A stretch of 64,000 bases of DNA, from positions 186,001 to 250,000 of the forward strand of contig NZ_KE387185.1 in NCBI RefSeq assembly GCF_000430645.1, given 5' to 3'. Shown here in pieces: positions 6,506 through 58,998 of the stretch. The DNA comes from Aquimarina latercula DSM 2041. Lineage in GTDB: Bacteria; Bacteroidota; Bacteroidia; Flavobacteriales; Flavobacteriaceae. Each line of letters opens with the position of its first letter. Position 1 is the first letter of the stretch. The notes below the pieces were generated by a model, which ran no database searches, was not told the origin of the DNA, and saw nothing but the letters and a program-made list of their open reading frames with translations. The position numbers were made by a program, and so were the translations under genes.

Positions 6506-7501
6506 TTATTTTTCTAAGATGTGTAAATATTCTTTTGTTTCTGTGGCTTTGTGGTTTCTGTTTTCCGTTTTATCCGCTTTAAACCTCTTATATTTTGTAG
6601 TTACTAAATCGTATCTACCATAACGTTCCATAATTTGTCTTATTTCTTCTTCAGACATTAAACCTTCATTGTTATAGCTAAGAAAAATATAAGTAAACTG
6701 CGAATTCTTGATTAAATCTTCAAAAACCTTTACTACTAAACCTTTTTTACAATAATTAGATCTTTGATAAGGTCTTAAACCAGTCTTTCCAACTGGGACA
6801 AAGGTATCATATTTTGCAATAGTATTTAGTATATGATAATTGGCTCCATATTGTCTAGCATTATACGGTGGATCAAGATATAAAATGTCTCCTTCTATTT
6901 GCTTTATCAATATATTACTATCCTCATTATAAACCAGATGCTTGTTTTCTGTGAAGTCAAAATTTGCTGGAACGAGCTCTAACTTTTTCTGAGCAGTTTT
7001 TTTTAAGCCCTTTAGATATGATGCATATACAGAGGCCGTATTAGCAACTTTATCGGCTCCTTCTAAAAGTGATACTAATAAAAAATAATAGATATTTTCA
7101 TCAATTTCTTTTCTATCCTTCCATTTTTCAATTTGTATTCTTGCCGCATCAATTTTAAGTCCATTATCATCACTGAAATATTGACGTCCAGACAAACTTC
7201 CGTTACAATAATTATTGTAGACAAAACCTTTTTTTCCTTGCAAGCGGTTTAATTCTACAATGTAATCCAAAGAATTAATCTCTTCGCTATTTCCAATATA
7301 ATTCCGGTTTAGCGCATAACTATAATACTCCAGGTCATTTGCAATCACCTGTTTTACAATAGTTTTAAAACTTCTTCCAACTACACCTGTTCCTGCAAAA
7401 AGATCACAAAAAACTTTATCTTCTAAATCAGCGCCTACTGTTTCAAAAACAGAAGTTCTAATAAAATTAGAGAGTTTGTATTTTGAGCCGATATAATTCA
7501 T
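6506..7501 (-). CDS. D12-class N6-adenine DNA methyltransferase
   Basis: The 331 residues carry the alpha-class (Dam/D12) motif order. MNYIGSKYKL at the N-terminus precedes DLFAGTGVVG (33-42, SAM-binding motif I), and the catalytic DPPY lies at 210-213. The enzyme should methylate adenine N6 at a specific DNA site. The sequence is longer than Dam and resembles restriction-associated enzymes such as M.DpnII and M.FokI halves. The next upstream gene (7513-8142) is a natural restriction-enzyme candidate. Insertion between the conserved DUF6427 and DUF4254 genes suggests acquisition by transfer. The target site cannot be read from sequence. Confidence 0.88.
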   Translation of the reverse strand: MNYIGSKYKLSNFIRTSVFETVGADLEDKVFCDLFAGTGVVGRSFKTIVKQVIANDLEYYSYALNRNYIGNSEEINSLDYIVELNRLQGKKGFVYNNYCNGSLSGRQYFSDDNGLKIDAARIQIEKWKDRKEIDENIYYFLLVSLLEGADKVANTASVYASYLKGLKKTAQKKLELVPANFDFTENKHLVYNEDSNILIKQIEGDILYLDPPYNARQYGANYHILNTIAKYDTFVPVGKTGLRPYQRSNYCKKGLVVKVFEDLIKNSQFTYIFLSYNNEGLMSEEEIRQIMERYGRYDLVTTKYKRFKADKTENRNHKATETKEYLHILEK

Positions 7502-7512
7502 CGTTTATTAAG

Positions 7513-8142
7513 TCAATTTGCTTGTCCCTTAACAGCCCAAATCAAACCAATCTTACTGATTTGATAAGGTTGTAATTGTAGTCTAAATAATCTTGAATCA
7601 TCAAATGTAGCAACATATACCGAGATTATATCTCTAAGCCAAGAGATTTGTGCTTTTAATTTCCAGTGTTCATGATCATCTGCGTATAAAACTATAAAAA
7701 TGATATTTTCTGAATTCTTTTTTGGTTGTTGACTTGAACTATTAGCTAACCAGTACATTAATTCTTTAGAATTTTCTCTTGTATACTGCAACGATTTCCC
7801 AAAACCTTCAGGAAAGACAATCATTTTAAAATCAAATAATTTGTTTCCATCATTATCGGTTGAAAATATATTTCTCGAATTTGATAAAATTAGCTCTATC
7901 GCTATATCACTCCAGTAGTCATACCATCGGTTTATAGTATAATTAAAAAATTCCTCCTCTTTAACTTTATACTTAATTGCCGACTTCGAAATTTTAGAAA
8001 CTACATTTTCCCATTTTACCGTAGTATAAATAAAATTACCATAACCATCCCAAAGATGATTTTGCTTTTTATTCCATTCACAGTTAATAGATAATCTATG
8101 TTGTAATTCTGATTCTATAATATCTAGATAAGGATCTTTCAA
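7513..8142 (-). CDS. Unknown protein paired with the methyltransferase; candidate restriction endonuclease
   Basis: I do not recognise the family. The frame can be read from a TTG at 8181, but a TTG at 8142 overlaps the DUF6427 stop as TTGA and gives 209 residues, which I prefer. The protein is soluble, rich in aromatic residues and has no signal peptide. A central FDFKMIVFPEGFGKS segment has a D-x-K pattern on a predicted beta strand, reminiscent of PD-(D/E)xK nucleases, and a second hydrophobic strand (NIIFIVLYADD) follows. Its stop lies 11 bases before the methyltransferase start. Type II endonuclease is inferred from the pairing only; a methyltransferase accessory protein is the alternative. 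Confidence 0.5.
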   Translation of the reverse strand: MKDPYLDIIESELQHRLSINCEWNKKQNHLWDGYGNFIYTTVKWENVVSKISKSAIKYKVKEEEFFNYTINRWYDYWSDIAIELILSNSRNIFSTDNDGNKLFDFKMIVFPEGFGKSLQYTRENSKELMYWLANSSSQQPKKNSENIIFIVLYADDHEHWKLKAQISWLRDIISVYVATFDDSRLFRLQLQPYQISKIGLIWAVKGQAN

Positions 8143-25442: not shown

Positions 25443-26621
25443 TCAATTTTTTAATTCCTCATATACTTTTATATATTGATCAATCATACTTTCTAAAGAA
25501 AATAACCTATAAATGTAATCCATATCAAAGTTAAATGTATTTAACTCCTTTGGGTTTTCTATTATTAATTTTAGTGTGTTTTTTAAATCCTCATTTAAAG
25601 GGTTAAAAGTAAACTTAGAATTATTACTTAATATTTCCTTTATACCTCCTTTGTTACTTCCTAAAACAGGAACATTACTTAATATTCCCTCTAATACGAC
25701 TCTTCCAAATGGTTCTTCCCATAGAGAAGGTACAACCAAAACGTTTATAGTATTAAAAAAAGTTTCCTGTTTTACATATCCCATAAATTCGACTTTTTCA
25801 TCTGGTAAAAAAGACAATAAAAAATCTTTATATGATGATTCTACTCTGCCGGCAATATATAGTTTCCAATTATTATAATCCCTAAACCCCGCCAGAACTT
25901 GTATTAAAATCTCAATTCCTTTAGCTTTATTTACCTGCCCAATAAAACCAAACTTCAAAAAAGCCTGGTTCTTAAAATTCGATTTTAATGATATCTCCTT
26001 TGTAGTATCAAATCCATTGTAAATTACTTTTTTAGCTGAAGGTTTAAAATATCCTTCATCTAAGTGATTCCTTAATATAAAATTACTGATTCCAACAACA
26101 CTATCTACAGATTGAGACTTAGTCTTCTTTATAACAGAAAAACACACACACTCCATGCATTGTTTTTCGCAATTATCATTCTTAAACTTATTGGTTTTAG
26201 GGCACTGTAAATAATAATCTCTAAGTGTATGTACAACTTTAATTCCTTTACTCTTAGCTATATCCCAAATGGAAACAGAGAAACCCATTAGATTATTGGT
26301 GTGGATAATATCAGGATCAAACTCATTAATTATTTTAAGAAAACTAGTATTATATTTTTTATTATATATATCCGTAAAGTGCCATTTCAGTTTTTTAACT
26401 TTTGACTGATCTACCTGATCAAAAGGCCAAAACACATTTTTTAATGCAAGTCTATATACTGGTATCTTATTTACATATACTTCTTCCTCATTTTTTCCTA
26501 GGGTTAAAATAGCAACATCAATTCCTCTTTTATACAATCCTTCTGCTATCGTCTGAACAGAGATTTCTGCACCTCCAACTTTAAATGGCTGATATAATGT
26601 ATTGACAATTAAAACCTTCAA
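25443..26621 (-). CDS. Glycosyltransferase family 4
   Basis: The 392 residues show the GT4 plan: MKVLIVNTLYQPFKVGGAEISVQ at the start, and a C-terminal domain with GFIGQVNKAKGIEILIQ, GYVKQETF and VPSLWEEPFGRVVLEGILSNVPVLG carrying the E-x7-E pair. A cysteine cluster (NCEKQCMECVC) lies around residues 153-163, an insertion also seen in some GT4 enzymes of this group and perhaps a metal site. It probably adds one sugar of the module B repeat unit. The start overlaps the flippase stop by four bases. Confidence 0.9.
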   Translation of the reverse strand: MKVLIVNTLYQPFKVGGAEISVQTIAEGLYKRGIDVAILTLGKNEEEVYVNKIPVYRLALKNVFWPFDQVDQSKVKKLKWHFTDIYNKKYNTSFLKIINEFDPDIIHTNNLMGFSVSIWDIAKSKGIKVVHTLRDYYLQCPKTNKFKNDNCEKQCMECVCFSVIKKTKSQSVDSVVGISNFILRNHLDEGYFKPSAKKVIYNGFDTTKEISLKSNFKNQAFLKFGFIGQVNKAKGIEILIQVLAGFRDYNNWKLYIAGRVESSYKDFLLSFLPDEKVEFMGYVKQETFFNTINVLVVPSLWEEPFGRVVLEGILSNVPVLGSNKGGIKEILSNNSKFTFNPLNEDLKNTLKLIIENPKELNTFNFDMDYIYRLFSLESMIDQYIKVYEELKN

Positions 26622-28057
26622 CTAAATATTTTCTTTTCTTTGAACAAAGTTTTGATTTCTTTCTTGAAAAACAAAAAGCAAAAAACCAGAACAACAACAA
26701 AGATGATGATTTTTATGCTTAAAAAATGATAGATTTGGGCATAGGATATATAACTTACAAGTGATAAAGCATAAAACCCTAAAGGTATAAAGATCATATA
26801 GAATACTTGGTATTGTATTTCGACAAACCTATTATAAAAAAAACTAAGCGATACTGATAATAAAAATTTACCTATCAACGTCGCTACTGCTGCTCCAAAA
26901 ATTCCGTGCCGAGGAATTAATATAATATTTAGAATGATATTTATCACAGCTGCTAATATTGTAAATACTGGTATAATTCGATTTCCTCGACCTTGAATAT
27001 CGTAAAACAAAGCACTTGCAAAAAAATAGTACACACCGTGGTATACAAATGCAAATGCAATACAAGGTATTACCATCCAAGAAATATGATATTCTTTTGG
27101 TGTAATCAACATTATTACTTCTTTACCGAAAAAAGATAATCCCAAAGCGACTATGCAATAAAAAACAATAATCAATTTTGCAATTTCTGGAATTGACTTT
27201 TGGCTATTATCCTTTATTTTTTGATTAAACCAGGGAACAAAAGCTTGATTTATTCCTGAAGCAATTAAAAAAACAATACTACCGAAGTTATTACCGATAC
27301 TATAAATACCTACTAAAGATGTATTCAACAACTTATTAATGATTATTCTATCAATTAGCATTGTTGTAACACCTGATAAGGTATGGGGGATTAATGGAAA
27401 GGCATATTTTAAAGACTTCTTAAGTATATCAACATCAATTCCAAAGGTTATATCTTTCCTAAACCTTGATAAAGTATAGATAAAGAAAACAACATTAGTT
27501 ATTGCTAAAGACCCCAAAACTCCTTTAGCACCCATATTGAAAAAAATTACACTTGTTAATAGTAAAATAATATTTACCAAAAAAAATATTGCATTATTTT
27601 TTCCAAAACGAACTCCTTCTTGTCTTGATTGTAATGAACTCTGATATATAGTATAACAAGGGTTAAAAATAACAGATACCAAACCAAGAGCCATAAAAGG
27701 AAAAAAATCAACGTCTTCTAAAAATGGTAGTAATAACCACTTTCTGCCTAAAAAGATAATTAATGTAACTACAAAACTATTCAGTAAAACAAAAGTAATT
27801 ATAGTCCCAAACAGTTTTTTTACCTTATTTTGATCATCTTTAAACTCATAATAAAACCTATTTAGCGTACCGGGAAGTGATAGTAAATAAAAGACATTCA
27901 GAAAGGCATTAATTGCAATAACAATTGCTACAACTCCATAATCATACGTGGACAAATAAACTGTCAAAACAGGAATTAGAATAAAATTAATCCCTTTTTG
28001 AAGTAGCATTAGAATGCTATAGATTCCAGAATTTTTAAGAAGTTTTTTTTGACTCAA
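26618..28057 (-). CDS. Polysaccharide flippase, MOP superfamily (Wzx-like), copy 1
   Basis: The 479 residues contain about fourteen transmembrane helices and start SQKKLLKNSGIYSILMLLQKGINF, typical of the polysaccharide transport branch of MOP flippases. It should move undecaprenyl-linked repeat units across the inner membrane. It is a typical partner of the polymerases encoded downstream. A second, more distant flippase is encoded at 42170, so at least two repeat units are likely exported. It follows the sialyltransferase-like gene by 16 bases. Confidence 0.88.
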   Translation of the reverse strand: MSQKKLLKNSGIYSILMLLQKGINFILIPVLTVYLSTYDYGVVAIVIAINAFLNVFYLLSLPGTLNRFYYEFKDDQNKVKKLFGTIITFVLLNSFVVTLIIFLGRKWLLLPFLEDVDFFPFMALGLVSVIFNPCYTIYQSSLQSRQEGVRFGKNNAIFFLVNIILLLTSVIFFNMGAKGVLGSLAITNVVFFIYTLSRFRKDITFGIDVDILKKSLKYAFPLIPHTLSGVTTMLIDRIIINKLLNTSLVGIYSIGNNFGSIVFLIASGINQAFVPWFNQKIKDNSQKSIPEIAKLIIVFYCIVALGLSFFGKEVIMLITPKEYHISWMVIPCIAFAFVYHGVYYFFASALFYDIQGRGNRIIPVFTILAAVINIILNIILIPRHGIFGAAVATLIGKFLLSVSLSFFYNRFVEIQYQVFYMIFIPLGFYALSLVSYISYAQIYHFLSIKIIIFVVVLVFCFLFFKKEIKTLFKEKKIFS

Positions 28058-28073: not shown

Positions 28074-29105
28074 TCAATAATTATAATTACTAATTAATTC
28101 AATGTCTTCGGATTCCCGATTCTTTTCAAAAAGATTATTGATTTCTGATTTTCTATATAATAATTTATCTGTAGGAATAAAAAAAGATTTAAGCTTTAAT
28201 TCATTTCCTAGAATAACTGATAACGTCTCAGCGACTGATGAGAAAAAAAGACCAACTTCCTCAGGAAATTGAGAAGAGAACAAAAAATGTAACTCTAATG
28301 GTAATTTATTTTTTATGATCACCCAATTAGGCATTTTTGCAACTAACTCTAAAACTTCATCAGATTCATTTCTGTGTGCATAATATTCTACTGTAATTCC
28401 TTCCGGGTATCGTTTTTTATAGTAGTCATCAATATTATTCAACAAACTAAGATAAAAATCTAACGTTAGCAATTTAGAATCTACTAGACTTTGTCCAACA
28501 AAAGCAATTTTCTTTTCAACTTTAGAACTCTTTTTTCTTTTCAGACTTCGCAAATATGAAAAAGTATTCTCTAATACTTGGATATGATTTTTCACTTCAA
28601 TTTTCTTAGCATAGTAAGAAAAAAAAGTATATTCCTTACATGCTAGATATGGTTTCACTGAAAAAAAAGCATACAACAACGTTTTTAGCTTATACGCTTT
28701 TGTATTAAACCCAAACCTATTTAAAAAAGAAATGTCATCTAAGCTCCTTGTGCCATCATCCACAAAAACATATTTTGCGTTATATAAATTTGCAAAAGAG
28801 GCTTGGTATATAGATCTGAAATGACCTACAATAATATACTCGTAGTTATCAATATTAAGCTTATTTTTTTTTAGGTTTTTTAAGAATAGTATTCTTTCTA
28901 AGAAATTTGGGTTTTTTGGTATTTCAATAGTAGATAAAGTTGCCTTAATTTTTAGCTCTTGTATTAACGATTTTACCTGTCTTTCATTGGTGATATTTCC
29001 ATCACTAAAAAAAGAAATATCAATACTTTTAACATTTAAATATTCTTTTGCTTCAATAGCGTTAATCAGCTGTAAAGGAGAAGCAATAATAATTTTTGCT
29101 TTCAT
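28074..29105 (-). CDS. Sialyltransferase-like protein (GT52/polysialyltransferase type)
   Basis: A 343-residue protein with no membrane segment. The opening KAKIIIASPLQLINAIEA matches the NTP/CMP-sugar transferase start seen in GT52 and polysialyltransferase families (SPLQ...A). Other fitting features are FVDDGTRS (114-121), the YAHRNE motif (242-247) near the position of the conserved HR of GT52, and VGLFFSSVAETL, near the family's C-terminal SS motif. It would transfer a nonulosonic acid from the CMP donor made by the two upstream enzymes. Sequence is divergent, so this relies jointly on motifs and on position beside the synthetase gene. Another GT-B family is possible. Confidence 0.6.
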   Translation of the reverse strand: MKAKIIIASPLQLINAIEAKEYLNVKSIDISFFSDGNITNERQVKSLIQELKIKATLSTIEIPKNPNFLERILFLKNLKKNKLNIDNYEYIIVGHFRSIYQASFANLYNAKYVFVDDGTRSLDDISFLNRFGFNTKAYKLKTLLYAFFSVKPYLACKEYTFFSYYAKKIEVKNHIQVLENTFSYLRSLKRKKSSKVEKKIAFVGQSLVDSKLLTLDFYLSLLNNIDDYYKKRYPEGITVEYYAHRNESDEVLELVAKMPNWVIIKNKLPLELHFLFSSQFPEEVGLFFSSVAETLSVILGNELKLKSFFIPTDKLLYRKSEINNLFEKNRESEDIELISNYNY

Positions 29106-29141
29106 AATAGTTCATCTAAAAAAGTAATTCTTTTCGGCTAT

Positions 29142-30302
29142 CTAAAGAATTTTCGATAAAACTTCTTCATAAAATTCTCTTACAACGCCTTCTCCTCCTT
29201 TTCTAGATAATTTTATAATTCCAGGAATATCTTTAATTTTATTTAAAGCATTAGATGGACAGGCTGCTATGCCAACCATACTCAACAATTCAAAACAATT
29301 AATATCATCACCAATATAAGCTACATTATCAATTGTAATACCTTCTTTTTTACAAATCTCCAGAGCAGCTGAAAGTTTTCCTCCATCTCGTTTTCCTTGA
29401 TACAAATAATCAACTTTCAATTTATTTGCTCTTCTTTTTACTAACTCGGTATTTTCAGATGTTATAATAGCCGTTTTTAAACCGTTCTCGCGAATTAACT
29501 GAAAAGCCATTCCGTCATGAGTATTAAACTTCTTTAACTCGTCTCCATTCTCACTATAATACATCCCTGCATCAGTCAGTACTCCATCAATATCAGAAAT
29601 AAATAATGATATTTTTTTCTTTGTTTCTTTAGGAAACAGATATTTTTTCATTAAAATTTCTGCTCTCTGCCAATCATCTTCTTCATCCAGTTCTACATCA
29701 GTATATTCAGGCATTAGAGATATTCCTATATTTCCGGAAAGTCTATTCCTTGATTCTTCAATCCTTCCTACAGTATTTATATAAAAAGCTCCATTTTCCA
29801 TGTATATTCCCTCAAAATCTTGCCTTCTAGGTCGATTATAAGGATTATAATTTATCGGATCACCATTCCCTTTCCAAAAAAAACGTTTTGATAATACACA
29901 AGAGAGAATACTGTCATACTCTTGTTTATCAAACATCTTAATTCCAGCAGTTAAATCTTTTGCCGTTAATAAAGGTGATGTTGCTTGAACTAAAATAAAG
30001 GCATCATTTTTATCCAATTTTCTTGCATTCAAATACTCTAAAATAACGCTCTCTGTCGATGAACTATCCTGAGCATTAGTCTTATTTCTACTATATACAG
30101 ATACTTTACTAAAACCAAAAGAATTTACTACAGTTTCTATTTCTTCGTGATCTGTGGCAATAATAACCTCATCAATAGCCTTAGTTTCTACCGCGGCTTT
30201 AATAGTCCAATATACCAATGGCTTACCAAAAAACTCCTTAATATTCTTTAAAGGAATAGATTTACTGCCTCCTCGGACGGGTATGAATACAATAGTTTTC
30301 AT
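29142..30302 (-). CDS. neuA: Bifunctional CMP-nonulosonate synthetase and HAD phosphatase
   Basis: Two domains in 386 residues. Residues 1-225 form an acylneuraminate cytidylyltransferase with PVRGGSKSIPLKNIKEF (CTP-binding P-loop-like motif) and ATSPL. Residues 230-386 form a KdsC-type HAD phosphatase with D237 and D239 (ISDIDGVLTD), TS at 281-282 and GDD at 331-333, all catalytic residues intact. The fusion matches the architecture of animal CMAS, in which the HAD domain is inactive, whereas here it looks active. It would dephosphorylate a nonulosonate 9-phosphate and activate it with CTP. The start overlaps the NeuB-like gene stop by four bases. Confidence 0.88.
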   Translation of the reverse strand: MKTIVFIPVRGGSKSIPLKNIKEFFGKPLVYWTIKAAVETKAIDEVIIATDHEEIETVVNSFGFSKVSVYSRNKTNAQDSSSTESVILEYLNARKLDKNDAFILVQATSPLLTAKDLTAGIKMFDKQEYDSILSCVLSKRFFWKGNGDPINYNPYNRPRRQDFEGIYMENGAFYINTVGRIEESRNRLSGNIGISLMPEYTDVELDEEDDWQRAEILMKKYLFPKETKKKISLFISDIDGVLTDAGMYYSENGDELKKFNTHDGMAFQLIRENGLKTAIITSENTELVKRRANKLKVDYLYQGKRDGGKLSAALEICKKEGITIDNVAYIGDDINCFELLSMVGIAACPSNALNKIKDIPGIIKLSRKGGEGVVREFYEEVLSKIL

Positions 30303-31177
30303 TGTTTGCGATACTTGAGTTTGTCTCTTTGTATCTGTTCTATTTCTAGAATTTCTGTTTGTTTATAATTCAATGCCTTAAAAGTTGCAAACAAATCTCT
30401 GCATAACTTTCTTAATCCTGTTGGCTCTAAAGAGGCTGCATGATCAGTGCCTTTCCAAGTTCGATCTTTAGTAAAATGTCTTTCCACCCAAGTCGCTCCT
30501 AGCGTGTAAGCTGCATTATCAATTGCAATTCCTAAATGATGTCCAGAAAACCCAATATCTTTTACTCGACTACCGTATTCATTCTTTAATCGAGAAATTT
30601 CTAATAAACAAACATCTTCAAATGGCACTGGATATCCAGAGGTACACGAGTAAATAACTAATCTGTGTTTTGCTTGATCTGTTTCTTCAAAAAACGATAT
30701 AATTTGTTTTTCTTCATCTTGGTTTGTCATACCAAATGATAAATGTACTTCTCCAGTATATTCATCCCTTAAAACTCGTAGCATATCAAAATGATTATTA
30801 CAAGCGGATGGAACTTTTAGCATCGATGGATTAAAAGTAATCATTTCTCTTGCAGAAGTAACATCCCAGACCGAAGTAGAATATTCTATCCCTATTTCAT
30901 CACAATAATCCTTAAGTTCTTTATGTTGTTCTACTGAAAACTCAAGAAATTCTCTATGTGCTCCATAGGTATCTCCATAAGAATTACTTGGATTGGGGTG
31001 TGGAGCATTATATTGTTGTTCGGTAAGTAACTCTCTATTATTCCTCTTTTGGAACTTAGCGACATCTGCATTACATTCTTTAGAAAGGCGCAATAGCTCT
31101 TTGGCTATATCCATATCTCCTTTATGATTGCAACCTATCTCCGCAATTACTTTCGGTTTTTTATACTCCATATTCAT
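30299..31177 (-). CDS. neuB: NeuB-like nonulosonic acid (9-phosphate) synthase, lacking SAF domain
   Basis: The 292 residues cover only the TIM-barrel catalytic domain: IAEIGCNHKGDMDIA (11-25), AKFQKRNNRELL, KVPSACNNHFDML, and GFSGHHLGIAIDNAA then WVERHFTKDR. NeuB enzymes of bacteria are usually near 345 residues with a C-terminal antifreeze-like SAF domain; it is absent here. It condenses phosphoenolpyruvate with a hexose or hexosamine, likely a 6-phosphate form because a phosphatase follows. Mannose-6-phosphate (giving KDN-9-P) or ManNAc-6-P are candidates. A 24-base palindrome lies six bases before the ATG. Confidence 0.85.
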   Translation of the reverse strand: MNMEYKKPKVIAEIGCNHKGDMDIAKELLRLSKECNADVAKFQKRNNRELLTEQQYNAPHPNPSNSYGDTYGAHREFLEFSVEQHKELKDYCDEIGIEYSTSVWDVTSAREMITFNPSMLKVPSACNNHFDMLRVLRDEYTGEVHLSFGMTNQDEEKQIISFFEETDQAKHRLVIYSCTSGYPVPFEDVCLLEISRLKNEYGSRVKDIGFSGHHLGIAIDNAAYTLGATWVERHFTKDRTWKGTDHAASLEPTGLRKLCRDLFATFKALNYKQTEILEIEQIQRDKLKYRKQ

Positions 31178-43618: not shown

Positions 43619-44726
43619 GAACTAATTTAACGATCTTATTAATATGTTCAATTGTCATTGTTTTAGAGTAAATAGAGCTCAAAAAATCAATATTAGTCTT
43701 TATCTCTTCCTGTTTTAGGCCCTTAAATTCGAAACCTTCTTCGAACTCACTTTCTATTGAGAAAACAGCTATACCTTTGTTTTTAAAATAATTAAAAACT
43801 GGGTTGTTTTCGCTTAAAAAGACTCGCATCCCAAGCCATAAACAAATTATTATATTTCCTACTGCTTGTTGCCTTTGGTGATTCATAATGGCTATTGAAC
43901 AATTGGATAGAATTTTCACATATTCCTCTGGAGGAAGAAACTCCGTAAGCGGAACATAATTTCTAAGATTATTGTTCTCTAAATAGTCTGTAAGTTCCTT
44001 TGCATATGTATTATTACCATAATTAATAGGTACAATTTTCTTTACTGGATCAAAGGTTTTTATTTTTTCAATCTCATTGAATACTTCGATATGATTTGAT
44101 GTAAAAGAACTAGAGTTTCCTATAAGAATATCCGTTGCTTCATTATTTACTTTGAAGTTTTTCAGCCTTAGGGTTTCGATATCTACATAATTAAAATGTA
44201 CATATCTCGCATTTGGTAAATAACCTTCAATATATTTTTTCTCAGTGGGAATTACTGTAGAATAAAATGCAACTTTTTTTAGTAGCTTTTTATATTTATA
44301 ATGGTAATAGTATCCTCTGTAATTTTCTTTTAACCTATAAAAAAATGATGTAATTCGATCAAATACTTTCTGAGTGTGAGGCAGTAGTAATTTTCCTTTA
44401 AATTTTGGTAATAAATAAATATCAGCCCCCCAAAAATGAACTATTATTTTTTCATAATTTCTAAAACTTTGTAAAAGCTTTAATTTAATCCTATCTAAAC
44501 CATGTATAAAGAAAGCCTGTTTTTGATCGCCTGTATTTTTGATATGTGAAATGAGTAGTTTATAATACACCAATTCCACTTTATTTTTTTGTTTTACAAA
44601 ACGAACTTCTTGATTTGCATTAAATAATACAATTATATAGCGATTCTTGTTTGGATATGCTTTTTCATAATTATCTATTAAATCATCTACAAACTTCTCA
44701 TCATTAATTATATGAAGGTTATTCAT
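43611..44726 (-). CDS. WecF-like (GT56) dTDP-4-amino-sugar transferase
   Basis: The 371 residues match the WecF/GT56 pattern: IVHFWGADIY near 90-99, ILIGNSSSFTSNHIEVFNEI near 200-219, a VPINYGNN block and IMNHQRQQAVGNIIICLWLG near the C-terminus. Enterobacterial WecF transfers Fuc4NAc from its dTDP donor in enterobacterial common antigen. Fuc4NAc and Qui4NFo share a 4-amino-4,6-dideoxyhexose core, so this enzyme is the likely transferase for the dTDP-Qui4NFo made by its neighbours. The gene overlaps the VioF-like gene by eight bases. Confidence 0.85.
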   Translation of the reverse strand: MNNLHIINDEKFVDDLIDNYEKAYPNKNRYIIVLFNANQEVRFVKQKNKVELVYYKLLISHIKNTGDQKQAFFIHGLDRIKLKLLQSFRNYEKIIVHFWGADIYLLPKFKGKLLLPHTQKVFDRITSFFYRLKENYRGYYYHYKYKKLLKKVAFYSTVIPTEKKYIEGYLPNARYVHFNYVDIETLRLKNFKVNNEATDILIGNSSSFTSNHIEVFNEIEKIKTFDPVKKIVPINYGNNTYAKELTDYLENNNLRNYVPLTEFLPPEEYVKILSNCSIAIMNHQRQQAVGNIIICLWLGMRVFLSENNPVFNYFKNKGIAVFSIESEFEEGFEFKGLKQEEIKTNIDFLSSIYSKTMTIEHINKIVKLVHE

Positions 44727-45462
44727 TATCTTCTTCTTTGGTAAATAAGTCTAACTTTAAATATACTTTTTTGCCATTATCTCCCATATAATATGCATTT
44801 AAATACTCTCCATGATTTAACGCCCTTAAATGATTAATGACTTCTCTATAAGTGACTTTTTTGTTTAAATCAATTTCTAACAAATTATTAAAATCTTTTT
44901 TTAATTTTAGTTCTCCCTTAATTTCTGGTTTAATAGTGTCATAATTGTTATTCACAATATTAGGCAAATTCTGAAGAAGCAGTTCTTTTTCTGCTTCTAA
45001 AACCTTATTATAGGCCGTTAAAGATGTGTCATAGTCAAATAACTCTACTTGCTTTCTTGCTATTATATTACCATTATCCAATTCATTATCAATTTCATGA
45101 ATTGTTGCTCCTAGAATATTATTTTCTATAATTGAAAAAACCTGCGGGTACCATCCTCTATTATGTGGATTAAATCCAGGATGAACATTAATACACTTTA
45201 CACCACTAACTAAATGCTCTGGGAAAAACTGTTTGCAATGAATTGAAAAAACCAAATCAAAAGTAGACATGATTGTGTCAACGTCCTCATGTTTTTTCAA
45301 ATCAAAGACCATTATTTCATCTAATTGCTGAAAGTCATCTGGATTTGAAAAGGGGCTAATTGAAAATGAAAGTGAAACGGGTAAATCCAACTCATCTGAT
45401 ATTTCTTTAAAAGAAATTGCCATATGCGGATTATCTGATATTACTAAAGCTTTATTGTACAT
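44719..45462 (-). CDS. vioF: dTDP-4-amino-4,6-dideoxyglucose formyltransferase (VioF-like)
   Basis: A 247-residue protein with the sugar N-formyltransferase core. SIHCKQFFPEHLV, NVHPGFNPHNRGWYPQVFSI and ATIHEIDNELDNGNII give the Asn-His-Asp triad at N92, H94 and D129. The long blocks resemble VioF and WlaRD, which formylate dTDP-Qui4N with 10-formyltetrahydrofolate. A C-terminal extension from about 200 (VTYREVINHLRALNHGEYLNAYY) fits the family. It lies between aminotransferase and WecF-like genes, completing a route to dTDP-Qui4NFo. Confidence 0.85.
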   Translation of the reverse strand: MYNKALVISDNPHMAISFKEISDELDLPVSLSFSISPFSNPDDFQQLDEIMVFDLKKHEDVDTIMSTFDLVFSIHCKQFFPEHLVSGVKCINVHPGFNPHNRGWYPQVFSIIENNILGATIHEIDNELDNGNIIARKQVELFDYDTSLTAYNKVLEAEKELLLQNLPNIVNNNYDTIKPEIKGELKLKKDFNNLLEIDLNKKVTYREVINHLRALNHGEYLNAYYMGDNGKKVYLKLDLFTKEEDNE

Positions 45463-45472
45463 TGTAATTGTA

Positions 45473-46546
45473 TTATTTAATACTGCATATAATATCTCCG
45501 ATCATATCGATTTCATCTTTAGTTAATTCATAATATAGAGGAAGGCACAAAATTCTTTCTGATATATCTTCGGATCTTGATAATTTTATTTTATCTACAT
45601 ATTCCAGTTTATTGAGAGAAGGATAAAAATATCTTCTAGGGTAAATAAGGTTTTTATTCAAAGCCTTAATACACTCTAATAAAAGCTCTTCATTTGGAAA
45701 TAGTAGCGGATAATAGGCATAATTGAAATCACTGTCTTTTTCTAAAGTCATTTTTTTATACCCCAATCCACTAAGAACTTTGTCATAGTATTCACTTTGT
45801 TCTTTTCTACTTCTTAATATATCATCAACATAGTTTAGGTTACATAAACCCATTGCTGCATGAAACTCTGAGTTTTTTGCATTAATTCCGACTCCATTAA
45901 ACTTTTCTGGGCCGTCATGTCCAAAGTTTCTAAGATATGTCAGCTTTTTATTTAGATCTTTAGACCTTGTCATAATTGCTCCTCCTTCTGTAGTATGAAA
46001 TAGCTTTGTTGCATGAAAACTCGTGACGCTTATATCCCCATATTCAAAAACAGATTTCCCTTTATACTTTGTTCCGAAGCAATGTGCAGCGTCATAAATA
46101 ACTTTTAAATCATTTCGTTTCGCTACTTCTTCAATTGCTTCAATATCACAAGGGTTACCAAACACATGAGTAGCTAATATAGCCGATGTATTCGGCGTAA
46201 TGGCCCTCTCAATTTTACCTGGATCGATATTATAAGTATCGGGAATAATATCAACAAATATTGGTTTACATGATTCCCATACAATACTAGAAGTAGTAGC
46301 TACATAAGAGAAGGGGGTTGTAATAATTTCCCCTTTTAAATCTAATGCTTTAATCGCCAATTGTAAAGCAATTGTTCCATTGGTCACAAACAAAAGATTT
46401 TCTAATTCCAGATAATCCTTAAGTGCTGACTCTAATTTGTTTACCAAAGGCCCATTATTTGTAAGCCAGTTTCTTCCCCAAATATCATTTACATAATTAT
46501 TATACTCCTCTAACGGAGGTAAAAATGGCTTAGTAACATTAATCAT
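45473..46546 (-). CDS. vioA: dTDP-4-keto-6-deoxyhexose aminotransferase (VioA-like, DegT family)
   Basis: The 357 residues form a DegT/DnrJ/EryC1/StrS PLP enzyme: [10 protein letters not shown] (phosphate-binding), D152 contacting the PLP ring nitrogen in YDAAHCFG, and the Schiff-base K181 in [15 protein letters not shown]. It should aminate dTDP-4-keto-6-deoxyglucose at C4. VioA (Qui4N) is preferred to FdtB or WecE because the formyltransferase downstream resembles VioF. It sits ten bases upstream of vioF and overlaps rmlA by eight bases. Stereochemistry at C4 cannot be proven from sequence. Confidence 0.82.
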
Positions 46547-47414
46547 GGTTCAATATTCTTTTTATATAATCAAAATAATCTCCTTTTAGATTTTTGATTC
46601 TTGCAAGCACCTGTTCTTTACCAATCCAATTAAGTTTTAAGGCAATTTCCTCGATACATGCTATTTTTAAACTTGTTCTTTTTTCTACAGCTTTTACAAA
46701 TTCAGTAGCCTCTGTTAAAGCTTCATGAGTTCCTGTATCTAACCAGGCGTACCCTCTACTCATTACTTGAAGTTTTAAATTGTTTTGATCCAAATATGTT
46801 TGATTTACAGTAGTAATTTCTAACTCTCCTCTGGCAGAAGGTTTTACCTGTTTTGCAACATTTACAACAGAATTGGGATAGTAATACAATCCTACAATTG
46901 CATAATTTGACTTAGGACTTTCGGGTTTTTCCTCGATGTTTAAAACATTACCTTGCTTATCAAATTCTGCCACACCGTATCGCTCGGGATCCTCTACATA
47001 ATACCCAAATACAACAGCTTTGTTTTGTTCTTTAACCTCTTGGACAGATTGTAGTAATAATTTTTGTAATCCAGCTCCATAAAAAATATTATCTCCAAGA
47101 ACCAGACAAACATCATCATTACCAATAAATTGCTCTCCTATTATAAACGCTTGTGCCAAACCATCCGGAGAAGGTTGTTCTGCATATGAAATATGTATTC
47201 CCAAGTGACTTCCATCTCCAAATAACTTTCTAAAATTAGGCAAATCATGTGGTGTAGAAATAATTAAAATCTCTTTGATACCCGATAGCATTAATATCGA
47301 TAGTGGATAATATATCATCGGTTTGTCATAAATTGGTAAAAGTTGTTTAGAAACAACTTTGGTAAGAGGATGTAAACGAGTTCCCGATCCTCCTGCTAAT
47401 ATGATTCCTTTCAT
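46539..47414 (-). CDS. rmlA: Glucose-1-phosphate thymidylyltransferase, copy 1
   Basis: The 291 residues open [17 protein letters not shown] (nucleotide-binding loop) and have [41 protein letters not shown] and [14 protein letters not shown], all diagnostic of RmlA. It makes dTDP-glucose for the Qui4NFo branch with rmlB copy 1 and vioA. A second copy at 57087 serves the rhamnose set and differs in sequence, so the two are not a recent duplication. A lipoprotein gene lies between this gene and rmlB copy 1. Confidence 0.96.
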
Positions 47415-48219: not shown

Positions 48220-49269
48220 CTAATTATATTGCTGTTCGTAATACTTTTGATAATCTCCAGAAGTTACATGATCAAGCCATTCTGTATTTTCAAGATACCA
48301 GTCAATCGTTTTGGATAAACCTTGCTCAAAGGTAACCGATGGTTCCCAACCTAATTCTTTATTGATTTTTGAAGCATCTATTGCATAACGGAGATCATGT
48401 CCTGGGCGGTCTTTTACAAAAGTAATCAATTGTTGTGATGTGTTTTCAGGTTGACCTAGACATTTATCCATTAATTTGCATAGCAACTTCACCAAATCAA
48501 TGTTTTTCCATTCGTTAAAACCTCCAATATTGTACGTTTGTCCATTTCCTCCTTTGTGATACAATAAATCGATAACGACTGCATGATCCTTAACATATAA
48601 CCAATCACGGGTATAGTTACCATCACCATAGACCGGTAAAGGTTTTTTATTAATAATATTATTAATAAAAAGAGGGATGAGTTTTTCTGGGAAATGATTA
48701 GGTCCATAATTATTAGAGCAATTACTAATCACATAAGGTAATCCATAAGTTTCACCATATGCTCTTACGAAATGGTCTGAACTTGCTTTTGATGCTGAAT
48801 AGGGAGAATTAGGATCGTAAGACGTGGTTTCAGTAAAAAGCCCTGTTTCTCCTAGTGCCCCATACACCTCATCCGTACTTATATGATAAAAGCGTTTACT
48901 TTGCCACTTACTTTGCCAAATGTTTTTAAAGGCATTTAGCAACACCATAGTTCCTAAAATATTGGTTTTAGCAAATGCCAGCGGATCAGTAATAGAACGA
49001 TCTACGTGACTTTCGGCGGCTAGGTGGATTACACCATCAAACTTCTGCTTCTCAAAAAGCTCATTAATGAACTTTTCGTCTGCAATATCTCCTTTGATAA
49101 AGGAATAGTTATTATGGGCCTCAATATCCTTTAAATTCTCTAAATTTCCTGCGTATGTAAGAGCATCCAAATTAAAAATTTGGTATGCTGGATATTGAAG
49201 AACAAACCTTCTCACTACATGTGAGCCAATAAATCCGGCTCCTCCGGTAATCAATATTTTTTGACTCAT
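48220..49269 (-). CDS. rmlB: dTDP-glucose 4,6-dehydratase, copy 1
   Basis: The 349 residues open ILITGGAGFIGSHVVRRF. Further RmlB hallmarks are HLAAESHVDRSI, STDEVYG with the catalytic Thr-Asp-Glu, YSASKASSDHFVRAY with the Tyr-Lys pair, and NNYGPNHFPEKLIPL. It converts dTDP-glucose to dTDP-4-keto-6-deoxyglucose, the substrate of the VioA-like enzyme. It overlaps the heparinase-like gene upstream by four bases (ATGA). Compared with copy 2 at 57985 it is longer and differs through much of its sequence. Confidence 0.96.
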   Translation of the reverse strand: MSQKILITGGAGFIGSHVVRRFVLQYPAYQIFNLDALTYAGNLENLKDIEAHNNYSFIKGDIADEKFINELFEKQKFDGVIHLAAESHVDRSITDPLAFAKTNILGTMVLLNAFKNIWQSKWQSKRFYHISTDEVYGALGETGLFTETTSYDPNSPYSASKASSDHFVRAYGETYGLPYVISNCSNNYGPNHFPEKLIPLFINNIINKKPLPVYGDGNYTRDWLYVKDHAVVIDLLYHKGGNGQTYNIGGFNEWKNIDLVKLLCKLMDKCLGQPENTSQQLITFVKDRPGHDLRYAIDASKINKELGWEPSVTFEQGLSKTIDWYLENTEWLDHVTSGDYQKYYEQQYN

Positions 49270-57086: not shown

Positions 57087-57944
57087 TTAATCTAATTGCA
57101 ATAAATATTTACCATACCCGCTTTTAATAAGTGGTTTTGCTAACTTTTCAAGTTCATTCTTAGTTATAAACTCTTTTTTATAGGCTATTTCTTCAATCGC
57201 CCCTATTTTTAAACCTTGTCGCTCTTCTATTACCTGAACAAATTGAGAAGCTTGCATAAGAGAATTAAAAGTTCCAGTATCTAGCCAAGCGGTTCCTTTG
57301 TCCAAAATACTGACCTTCAACTTACCTTTCTCTAAATAAGCATTATTAATGTCCGTTATTTCCAATTCTCCCCGATCACTCGGTTTAATATTTTTGGCTA
57401 TTTGAACCACTTCATTATCATAAAAATAAATTCCAGGAACAGCATAGTTTGATTTAGGATTACTTGGTTTTTCCTCAATAGAAATAGCATTCCCTTTATC
57501 ATCAAAATCTACTACTCCATATCGTTCGGGGTCCTGTACGTGATATGCATATATGATTCCGCCATCGGGATCATTATTACTCTCTAATAATTCTTCCAAA
57601 CCCGAACCATAAAAAATATTATCTCCTAAAATTAATGCTACTTTATCATCTCCAATAAATTTTTCGCCAATAACAAAAGCTTCTGCTAATCCATTTGGTT
57701 CTTCCTGAACGGCATATTCGAAAACACATCCATATTTCTTACCATCACCTAACAGTTTCTTAAATAACGGTAAATCTAATGGAGTAGATATTATCAGTAT
57801 TTCTCTTATACCTGCGGACATTAATGTAGAAAGTGGATAATAAATCATAGGTTTATCATATACAGGCATTAATTGCTTACTAATCGCCAAAGTTAATGGG
57901 TGTAAACGCGTTCCTGATCCTCCTGCTAATACGATTCCTTTCAT
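57087..57944 (-). CDS. rmlA: Glucose-1-phosphate thymidylyltransferase, copy 2
   Basis: The 285 residues start [19 protein letters not shown] and contain [44 protein letters not shown] and [13 protein letters not shown]. It makes dTDP-glucose for L-rhamnose synthesis with rmlB copy 2, rmlC and rmlD. It shares strong similarity with copy 1 but has a separate set of neighbours, so each branch has its own first enzyme. A dRS3-like repeat lies in the short gap between this gene and rmlB. Confidence 0.95.
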
Positions 57945-57984: not shown

Positions 57985-58998
57985 TTACAAATTGTACTTC
58001 TCTAAATACCAGTGTATTGTTTTTTCAATTCCTGATTCGAAATTCTCTTCTGCACACCACCCCAATTCATTTTCAATTTTAGAAGCATCAATTGCATATC
58101 TAAAATCATGACCTGGTCTATCTTTTACATAAGTAATCAGGTCTGAATAAGATTTCTGACTTTCTAATGGTTTAATCTTATCAAGAATTTTACATATTGT
58201 CTTAGCAATATATATATTCTCTCGTTCATTTTTTCCCCCTATATTATAGGTTTCACCCAGTTTACCTTTTTCTAAAACCAAATTAATTCCTTTACAATGA
58301 TCCAAAACATACAACCAATCACGTATATTCTTGCCATCACCATAAATAGGAATACTTTCTTGGGAAATTGCTTTTCTTATAATCGTTGGAATTAGCTTCT
58401 CATTATGTTGTCTGGGTCCATAATTATTGGAACAATTTGTAGTAACAACTGGTAAACCGTATGTGTGAAAATAACTTCTAACCAACATATCAGAAGAAGC
58501 TTTAGATGCGCTATAGGGACTATTAGGAGCATATGAAGTTTCTTCAGTAAACAATCCTGTTTTTCCTAAAGTTCCATAAACCTCATCCGTAGAAACATGG
58601 AGAAATCTAGCATTTTCCATTCCCATTTTAAAAACATTAGGAGCGTCCATCCAATTTTTATACGCAGCTTGAAGCAAATTAAAAGTCCCAACAATATTAG
58701 TATCTATAAAAGCTCCTGGATTTGTTATAGAATTATCCACATGAGATTCTGCCGCAAAATGAACTACACTATTAATTTTATGCTCTTCAAAAACCTTTTG
58801 TACAAATTGAGCATCACAGATATCTCCTTTTACAAAAGTATAATCGAAGTCCTTCTGGATTTTAATATTTTCTAAGTTGGCAGCATATGTAAGCCTATCT
58901 AGATTAACAATCTTGATGTCTGAAAAGGTCGATAGGTAATTCAAAAAATTTGAACCTATAAACCCTGCTCCTCCGGTTACTAGCACACTTTTAAACAT
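57985..58998 (-). CDS. rmlB: dTDP-glucose 4,6-dehydratase, copy 2
   Basis: The 337 residues open KSVLVTGGAGFIGSNFL and contain HFAAESHVDNSI, STDEVYG, YSASKASSDMLVRSY and NNYGPRQHNEKLIPT, all RmlB signatures. It produces dTDP-4-keto-6-deoxyglucose for the L-rhamnose branch. A 40-base gap with an inverted repeat separates it from rmlA copy 2. Copy 1 (48220) is a paralogue and not a local duplication. Confidence 0.96.
   Translation of the reverse strand: MFKSVLVTGGAGFIGSNFLNYLSTFSDIKIVNLDRLTYAANLENIKIQKDFDYTFVKGDICDAQFVQKVFEEHKINSVVHFAAESHVDNSITNPGAFIDTNIVGTFNLLQAAYKNWMDAPNVFKMGMENARFLHVSTDEVYGTLGKTGLFTEETSYAPNSPYSASKASSDMLVRSYFHTYGLPVVTTNCSNNYGPRQHNEKLIPTIIRKAISQESIPIYGDGKNIRDWLYVLDHCKGINLVLEKGKLGETYNIGGKNERENIYIAKTICKILDKIKPLESQKSYSDLITYVKDRPGHDFRYAIDASKIENELGWCAEENFESGIEKTIHWYLEKYNL

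Follow-up and report, generated by a model that had tools for sequence, protein, structure and literature searches.

A three-gene module for nonulosonic acid synthesis occupies positions 28074-31177 of the minus strand in the 64,000-nucleotide stretch of the Aquimarina latercula DSM 2041 genome analysed here (contig NZ_KE387185.1, positions 186,001 to 250,000; hereafter the window). It sits inside a long surface-polysaccharide locus of this 6.2 Mb genome, and quite probably it makes cytidine monophosphate (CMP)-activated 2-keto-3-deoxy-D-glycero-D-galacto-nononic acid (KDN) and transfers KDN to the surface polysaccharide. The sequence itself shows which genes and domains are present, which residues are conserved, how the genes are linked and where the synthase falls in the tree; from these we infer substrate, product and all reactions. 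An earlier note on the same DNA had claimed three genes in this place, and minus-strand open reading frames (ORFs) were found exactly at those coordinates, with the following features:

30299-31177, minus strand: SAF-less NeuB-type synthase P0001, 292 amino acids (PF03102, 217.7 bits), a predicted KDN-9-phosphate synthase
31043-31048, minus strand: K44-R45 of P0001, directly after the active-site glutamine Q43 (Gln55 of Neisseria meningitidis NeuB), from the alignment
30953-30979, minus strand: YGDTYGAHR motif of P0001, residues 67-75, a proposed (inferred) phosphate-side determinant
30299-30302, minus strand: ATGA stop/start overlap of the P0001 and P0002 genes, from the sequence
29142-30302, minus strand: fused CMP synthetase-phosphatase P0002, 386 amino acids (ORF, Pfam and NCBIfam)
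29637-30302, minus strand: CMP-nonulosonate synthetase domain of P0002, residues 1-222 (CTP_transf_3; best solved relatives PpNeuA and 1qwj)
29142-29624, minus strand: KDN-9-phosphate-phosphatase-like HAD domain of P0002, residues 227-386 (NF058599 below cut-off; 3e81 best relative)
29454-29456, minus strand: E283 of P0002, equivalent to Glu56 of BT1713, from the alignment
29421-29423, minus strand: K294 of P0002, equivalent to Lys67 of BT1713, from the alignment
28074-29105, minus strand: putative GT-B nonulosonyltransferase P0003, 343 amino acids (AlphaFold2 model and fold comparison)

P0001 matched the Pfam family NeuB over residues 30-272 and no other family. It therefore has no SAF domain, as the earlier note had stated. 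A profile search found PF03102 once in the whole genome. Compared with N. meningitidis NeuB, P0001 keeps E13, Q43, K121, H213, E232, H234 and D245. It scored 184.3 bits under the N-acetylneuraminic acid (Neu5Ac) synthase model TIGR03569 (cut-off 399.65) and 118.4 bits under the pseudaminate synthase (PseI) model TIGR03586 (cut-off 340.25).

The best described bacterial point of comparison is the KDN pathway BT1713-BT1715 of Bacteroides thetaiotaomicron, which runs through mannose-6-phosphate (Man-6-P) and a 9-phosphate (Wang et al., 2008, as given in the excerpted text of PMC6200933). An unrooted maximum-likelihood tree was built from 67 of 113 synthase rows, hand-picked to thin near-copies, with BT1714 represented by proxies (“BT1714-type”), i.e., synthases adjoining phosphatases that pass NCBI's BT1713 model, plus close relatives. 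One group, with support 95/95, united the SAF-less clade of P0001 with the BT1714-type synthases, with synthases that carry a fused CMP synthetase (“fused”) and with a lineage called 290b (L047, L053, L054); L106 and L115 joined this group at 99/94. The far side of the tree held 16 rows: two solved enzymes, from Neisseria and Leptospira, and a further 14, six of which passed TIGR03569 (L116, L117, L118, L122, L123, L134), four PseI (L128, L129, L131, L136) and four neither model (L120, L126, L127, L130). Neither model was passed by the tested BT1714-type and fused rows (L132, L133, L119, L124, L114), by L115 or by L053. The phylogeny against BT1713-BT1715-type and pseudaminate enzymes that had been proposed as a check thus places P0001 with the BT1714-type proxies, apart from the rows passing TIGR03569 or PseI.

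Two sequence motifs follow this grouping. A Lys-Arg pair ([FL][QT]KR) was present in 74/74 clade rows, 8/8 BT1714-type, 2/2 fused and 3/3 290b rows, and in 0/16 others; YGxTYGxHR was present in the same clade, BT1714-type and fused rows (74/74, 8/8 and 2/2), and in 0/3 290b and 0/16 other rows. When the columns of both motifs were removed, the 49-row group stayed, although its support of 89/85 does not earn the branch a star. Gln55 of Neisseria NeuB, the counterpart of Q43, is listed among the residues that line the active site (PMC6795526, excerpted text). The sugar's 6-phosphate is probably bound by K44, R45 and the YGxTYGxHR loop.

Several unusual synthases were met in the same part of the tree. 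The 290b proteins form a second SAF-less NeuB lineage of 290-293 amino acids (L047:1986-2855, L053:1986-2855, L054:586-1464); they have a WGRMTY...YRHK stretch where YGxTYGxHR stands elsewhere, and adjoin the Glu/Lys phosphatase (see below) through which they were found. CMP synthetase, NeuB barrel and SAF domain occur in one polypeptide in L114:4370-6112 (581 amino acids) and L037:1955-3448 (498 amino acids, cut at the locus edge), both with a BT1713-like phosphatase alongside. L115:5866-7758 and L106 (from 1833 on) encode long NeuB-SAF proteins of 631 and 635 amino acids with Ser at the SAF arginine. The C-terminal end of L115 is a xylose-isomerase-like domain (Pfam, L115 only), and the NeuB that makes KDN in Serratia marcescens is described as having this make-up.

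The SAF domain itself bears on the acceptor. In Neisseria NeuB, no SAF residue other than Arg314 reaches directly into the active site, and its proposed role is to position the N-acetyl group of N-acetylmannosamine (ManNAc); R314A is inactive and R314K active (PMC6795526, excerpted text). This arginine is located in a KRPG motif. The equivalent residue was Ser in 12/12 SAF domains of the KDN-like branch (eight BT1714-type, two fused, L106 and L115; L121 reads LSPDDG), while the remaining 14 rows with a SAF domain (Neisseria excluded) had Arg in 13 cases and Lys in L130. In the clade of P0001, the whole domain is lost. Mannose-6-phosphate has no N-acetyl group, and the SAF domain could therefore be lost; Ser at the arginine site and loss of the domain fit an acceptor of this kind. 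We place a second site opposite Met42 of the human synthase, where a single mutation reportedly abolishes KDN-9-phosphate synthase activity, going by the title of a 2006 paper by Hao et al. that PMC7845648 lists among its references. Of the 75 clade rows that have a residue at this site, 74 held Leu, Val, Met or Ile, as did 6/7 BT1714-type rows, the seventh having Ala. The fused rows and L106 and L115 had Met or Leu, all three 290b rows Gly, and 14/14 others Ala, Ser or Glu. As a second position, it agrees with the arginine pattern.

P0002 was described earlier as a cytidylyltransferase fused to an apparently active KdsC-type phosphatase, and both halves fit that description. Its N-terminal part matched CTP_transf_3 (90.2 bits, residues 4-175). 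Among solved structures, the closest relatives of this domain were PpNeuA (9t4z, 139 bits), which from its name we take to be the Prymnesium CMP-Kdn synthetase, and the CMP-Neu5Ac synthetase 1qwj (124 bits), followed by three further NeuA-type chains (76, 72 and 63 bits). An RPRRQ[DE] motif was found in 64/72 cytidylyltransferases of clade loci (L106 left out) and 0/9 from other NeuB loci; among the eight exceptions, those of L005, L089, L091, L093, L100 and L103 are just 25-29% identical to P0002. In the C-terminal part, the motif aspartates D237 and D239 and a GDD at 331 are present, so the phosphatase looks active. Its best solved relative was 3e81 (BT1713, E 1.7e-41). The BT1713 chains 4hgq and 4hgr differ at Glu56 and Lys67, and P0002 has Glu and Lys at these positions. 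The pair was found in 69/69 clade phosphatases aligned, compared with Arg/Thr in Escherichia coli KdsC and Gly/Gly in the genome's own KdsC; seven other phosphatases without NeuB nearby had Asp/Arg. It is consistent with a KDN product, and as a sequence sign not sufficient for one. In most of L006-L031, the fused synthetase-phosphatases are only about 36-41% identical to P0002, yet the synthases are 66-71% identical to P0001; Glu and Lys are kept.

Since the phosphatase also passed the KdsC subfamily model TIGR01670 (124.4 bits, cut-off 107), one could suppose a second pathway of the 3-deoxy-D-manno-octulosonic acid (KDO) kind, with enzymes for the synthesis or recycling of an ulosonic acid of eight carbons. 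The synthase, however, belongs to the NeuB family and the genome has a separate KdsC paralogue (137 bits), which makes such a pathway very improbable; a reading with KDO alone was rejected because of the separate KdsC.

The sequence of reactions proposed for the KDN route is as follows. P0001 would condense mannose-6-phosphate with phosphoenolpyruvate to KDN-9-phosphate, with K44, R45 and the YGxTYGxHR loop gripping the 6-phosphate of the sugar. The HAD domain of P0002 would release KDN, its N-terminal domain would convert KDN and CTP to CMP-KDN, and the GT-B enzyme P0003 would pass KDN from CMP-KDN to the glycan. The reasoning of the earlier note, from a phosphatase to a 9-phosphate and from there to KDN, is insufficient alone, because animals also make Neu5Ac through a 9-phosphate. 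Its conclusion gains support from the grouping of the synthase, the Glu/Lys pair, the lack of a NanE match over cut-off and the absence of the SAF arginine along this branch.

An animal-type Neu5Ac route, in which ManNAc-6-phosphate is the acceptor, Neu5Ac-9-phosphate is dephosphorylated and CMP-Neu5Ac is made, was weighed against KDN. To our knowledge, the human synthase also lacks the SAF arginine. It accepts both ManNAc-6-phosphate and mannose-6-phosphate (PMC6795526 and PMC7845648, excerpted text). Moreover, 1qwj, which ranks second among the solved relatives of the cytidylyltransferase domain, is a CMP-Neu5Ac synthetase. On the other hand, the solved structure closest to the phosphatase is a KDN-type enzyme, and a supply of ManNAc-6-phosphate is hard to find. 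In bacteria, this compound is provided by NanE, and animals use another enzyme. NanE scored 21.4 bits over 41 positions in this genome, below its cut-off of 27, and was found in 0/299 genomes of the family at E<=1e-10, though 47 of them carry the synthase clade; five control genomes gave matches, and ManNAc kinases (ROK) were not searched for. As the earlier note had said, there is no neuC: the genome's sole NeuC relative is WecB of the window, with 498 bits under TIGR00236 and 92.9 under TIGR03568 (cut-off 235.9). N-acetylglucosamine (GlcNAc) 2-epimerase was rejected as a ManNAc source, the sole AGE relative scoring 404 bits as a cellobiose 2-epimerase and 82 as the GlcNAc enzyme, both under cut-off. 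We therefore regard an animal-type route as unlikely. The NeuBCA route to Neu5Ac was rejected for the absence of NeuC; P0001 also stays under the TIGR03569 cut-off. The absence of legionaminate and pseudaminate genes was likewise upheld, and both pathways were rejected for the window, where the aminotransferase falls short of LegC (190 vs 420 bits) and PseC (184 vs 424 bits). For the KDN route, the phosphomannose isomerase family PF20511 had two matches in the genome, which makes mannose-6-phosphate a likely precursor; the phosphomannose isomerase domain PF01238 had none in the genome.

Distribution of the module was studied with genomes as samples; relatives below 60% coverage were dropped from the locus comparison and locus ORFs were called greedily. 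The clade synthase was found in 47/299 sampled Flavobacteriaceae genomes (source genome counted) at identities of at least 63%, the next best match being at 40%. A scan of named genomes yielded 46 loci, mostly in Bacteroidota, with a few in Bdellovibrionota, Bacillota and a candidate phylum. Clade synthases with 60-69% identity occur in L096, L099, L107, L092 and L098, whose records bear the names Taylorbacteria, Lachnospiraceae, Phascolarctobacterium and Pseudobdellovibrio; these may reflect gene transfer or binning error. Across the 46 loci, the synthase cluster was present in 44, the cytidylyltransferase cluster in 42 and every other cluster in at most eight, so that the core of the module is a two-gene cassette of synthase and cytidylyltransferase gene. 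A phosphatase relative was counted in 39 of the 46 clade loci (L062-L107 minus L106, plus L130), within the same ORF as the CMP synthetase in 30, separate in eight and partial in one (L092, a 324-amino-acid ORF). Among 29 clade loci taken with 1.5-kb flanks, 24 had the fused phosphatase, three had ORFs cut at the locus edge (L006, L008, L016) and two had none. Phosphatases also stood beside BT1714-type synthases in 4/4 loci fetched for the synthase (L119, L121, L124, L125), vs 0/13 other NeuB loci, and were present in all seven loci with BT1714-type or fused synthases.

A variant cassette was observed in L093 and L103 (in part also in L089, L091 and L100), consisting of a SAF-less synthase, a different NeuA and a separate phosphatase. 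In L093 and L103, oxidoreductase-like (Gfo/Idh/MocA) and short-chain dehydrogenase/reductase (SDR)-like genes, recognised by eye, lie between synthase and phosphatase, which suggests a modified product there. The Aquimarina product could similarly be mixed or modified: a KDN-9-phosphate core leading to KDN that is then decorated or oxidised, or to KDN together with some Neu5Ac, as in the Serratia capsule with a KDN:Neu5Ac ratio of about 20:1 (PMC9000132, excerpted text). The Aquimarina module has no genes of this sort, however, and none besides synthase and cytidylyltransferase exceeds 8/46 loci; such a product is unlikely. A decayed or silent module is hardly probable, as the frames are intact, catalytic residues are kept and P0001 is 98% identical to the synthase of Aquimarina amphilecti.

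The third protein had been called sialyltransferase-like. The AlphaFold2 model of P0003, made from a seven-row alignment (mean predicted local distance difference test score 82.3), agrees with this, its fold being closest to that of the bacterial polysialyltransferase 5wcn/5wc6 (Z 20.7 over 325 residues, root-mean-square deviation 5.3); the next fold entry was a UDP-GlcNAc 2-epimerase (Z 15.1). In Foldseek, 5wc6 came first (E 4e-10), MurG and plant C-glycosyltransferases next, and the Neisseria lipooligosaccharide (LOS) sialyltransferase 2yk7 ranked sixth (E 2.4e-5). P0003 shares the fold of 5wc6/5wcn and 2yk7, which we take to be GT38 and GT52 enzymes, but is only 15% and 13% identical to them and has no Pfam match. 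A phmmer search against solved structures found no relative, and a P0003 profile gave just one chance match; the P0003 relative in L105 reached 21.3 bits against GT52 (cut-off 26.1). GT-B sialyltransferases carry D/E-D/E-G, HP and S motifs. In P0003, D116, G118, H244, R245, E247 and S289 are invariant in the seven rows, with HR at the HP site. Relatives are rare (two other genomes of 299, plus L062-L064 and L105), and 4/46 loci of the named-genome scan had one. In L062-L064, L105 and L134, the relative shares a cluster with NeuA and NeuB genes; the relative in genome G016 has no NeuB in the 12 kb around it (L135). In the simplest reading of model and gene context, P0003 would move CMP-nonulosonates. 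In L134, a P0003-like transferase (6946-7971) stands beside a regular NeuB that passes TIGR03569 (422 vs 400 bits).

Known systems resemble the module to different degrees. The Bacteroides pathway has the same set of synthase, KDN-9-phosphate phosphatase with the Glu/Lys pair and CMP synthetase, the last presumably being BT1715, and BT1714-type synthases share the Lys-Arg and YGxTYGxHR motifs and group with the P0001 clade. Unlike in Aquimarina, where the SAF domain is gone and the phosphatase is fused, the BT1714-type synthases examined have a SAF domain, in which Ser takes the place of R314, and their phosphatase is a separate protein. Because the SAF domain and the BT1713 equivalog cut-off both fail, the module is better seen as a variant of the KDN route than as a strict member of the Bacteroides type. 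Fusions of KDN-9-phosphate phosphatases to nucleotidyltransferases, and the Glu/Lys pair, were reportedly described by Daughtry et al. in 2013 and would match P0002 in both respects; a SAF-less partner synthase is not known from that work. In the haptophyte Prymnesium parvum, the Kdn-9-P synthetase uses Man-6-P, as predicted for P0001, and PpNeuA is the closest solved relative of the P0002 N-terminal domain; unlike in Aquimarina, a search of the alga for a phosphatase homologue found none, according to the excerpted text, and its CMP synthetase is membrane-anchored (PMC6200933). The KDN-dominant capsule of S. marcescens KL1/KL2 requires neuA and neuB (PMC9000132, excerpted text). Unlike P0001, the Serratia NeuB has an extra sugar isomerase-like domain; L115 shares this make-up and joins the P0001 branch together with L106, but neither has a phosphatase in the stretch examined, in which they differ from the Aquimarina module.

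A number of observations weigh against the KDN interpretation. The P0002 phosphatase stays under the cut-off of NF058599, the NCBI equivalog for the BT1713 KDN-9-phosphate phosphatase (169.7 vs 180 bits), and the Glu/Lys pair also occurs in eight phosphatases without a NeuB match in about 1.5 kb on either side (L039, L041, L044, L048, L050, L055, L058, L061; L041 is cut at a contig end). Seven of the 46 clade loci are without a phosphatase, L082, L089, L096 and L100 in the stretch fetched and L087, L098 and L104 cut at contig ends, as are L005 and L017 within 1.5 kb. L114, L132 and L133 were not counted as phosphatase linkage, because they were found through their phosphatase. The tree reaches BT1714 through proxies, has long branches (L130, L126, L134, L120 and the Leptospira row) and implies no root. 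At single positions, the 290b rows are without YGxTYGxHR, and C126 of the clade is Asp in BT1714-type synthases and Glu in most others. Loss of the SAF arginine alone cannot tell Man-6-P from ManNAc-6-P, as the human enzyme uses both. Finally, no Pfam or NCBIfam model recognises P0003, and MurG ranks above GT52 in its Foldseek results.

With these points considered, we somewhat favour the view that KDN-9-phosphate synthases include a distinct and widespread SAF-less family, in whose branch the SAF arginine became Ser and which then shed the whole domain. If true, KDN would be a common Bacteroidota surface sugar, two portable genes would suffice as its cassette, and the Lys-Arg and YGxTYGxHR motifs together with the SAF arginine would provide a testable sequence rule for KDN vs N-acetylated nonulosonates. 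We know of only few bacteria in which KDN has been shown so far. If the reading holds, it would be a routine sugar of these bacteria, the cassette's synthase being present in roughly a sixth of the Flavobacteriaceae genomes sampled, and would be overlooked by Neu5Ac-based assays. P0001 would also represent a synthase of 292 residues that naturally does without the domain from which Neisseria NeuB draws an essential residue. Synthesis of KDN via Man-6-P and a 9-phosphate in Bacteroides and algae (PMC6200933) and KDN capsules in Serratia (PMC9000132) are already known from the excerpted texts. In the literature searched (titles and abstract openings, most subscription journals lying outside), no SAF-less synthase of this kind and no KDN in Aquimarina were met, and the term “KDN” was not found in the excerpted text of a 2011 review of marine bacterial antigens (PMC3210612). 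Within the incomplete coverage of that search, the SAF-less clade and the arginine-serine-loss pattern may be new.

The module is followed by one further gene of the same orientation:

26618-28057, minus strand: 479-amino-acid multi-pass protein, oligosaccharide flippase-like by sequence reading alone (ORF)

Relatives of this gene were present in 8/46 clade loci. It belongs to a block that recurs in L062-L064, where gene order is kept. Promoter- and terminator-like sites showed no excess over shuffles, and no Bacteroidetes-type promoter pattern was found in the 283 bases upstream. Elsewhere in the window, a dTDP-4-amino-4,6-dideoxyglucose formyltransferase (277 bits, cut-off 238) adjoins a sugar aminotransferase (44719-45462 and 45473-46546), and the surface polysaccharide may accordingly hold a formylated 4-amino sugar. 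By eye, two copies each of RmlA (46539-47414, 57087-57944) and RmlB (48220-49269, 57985-58998) are apparent in this one locus.

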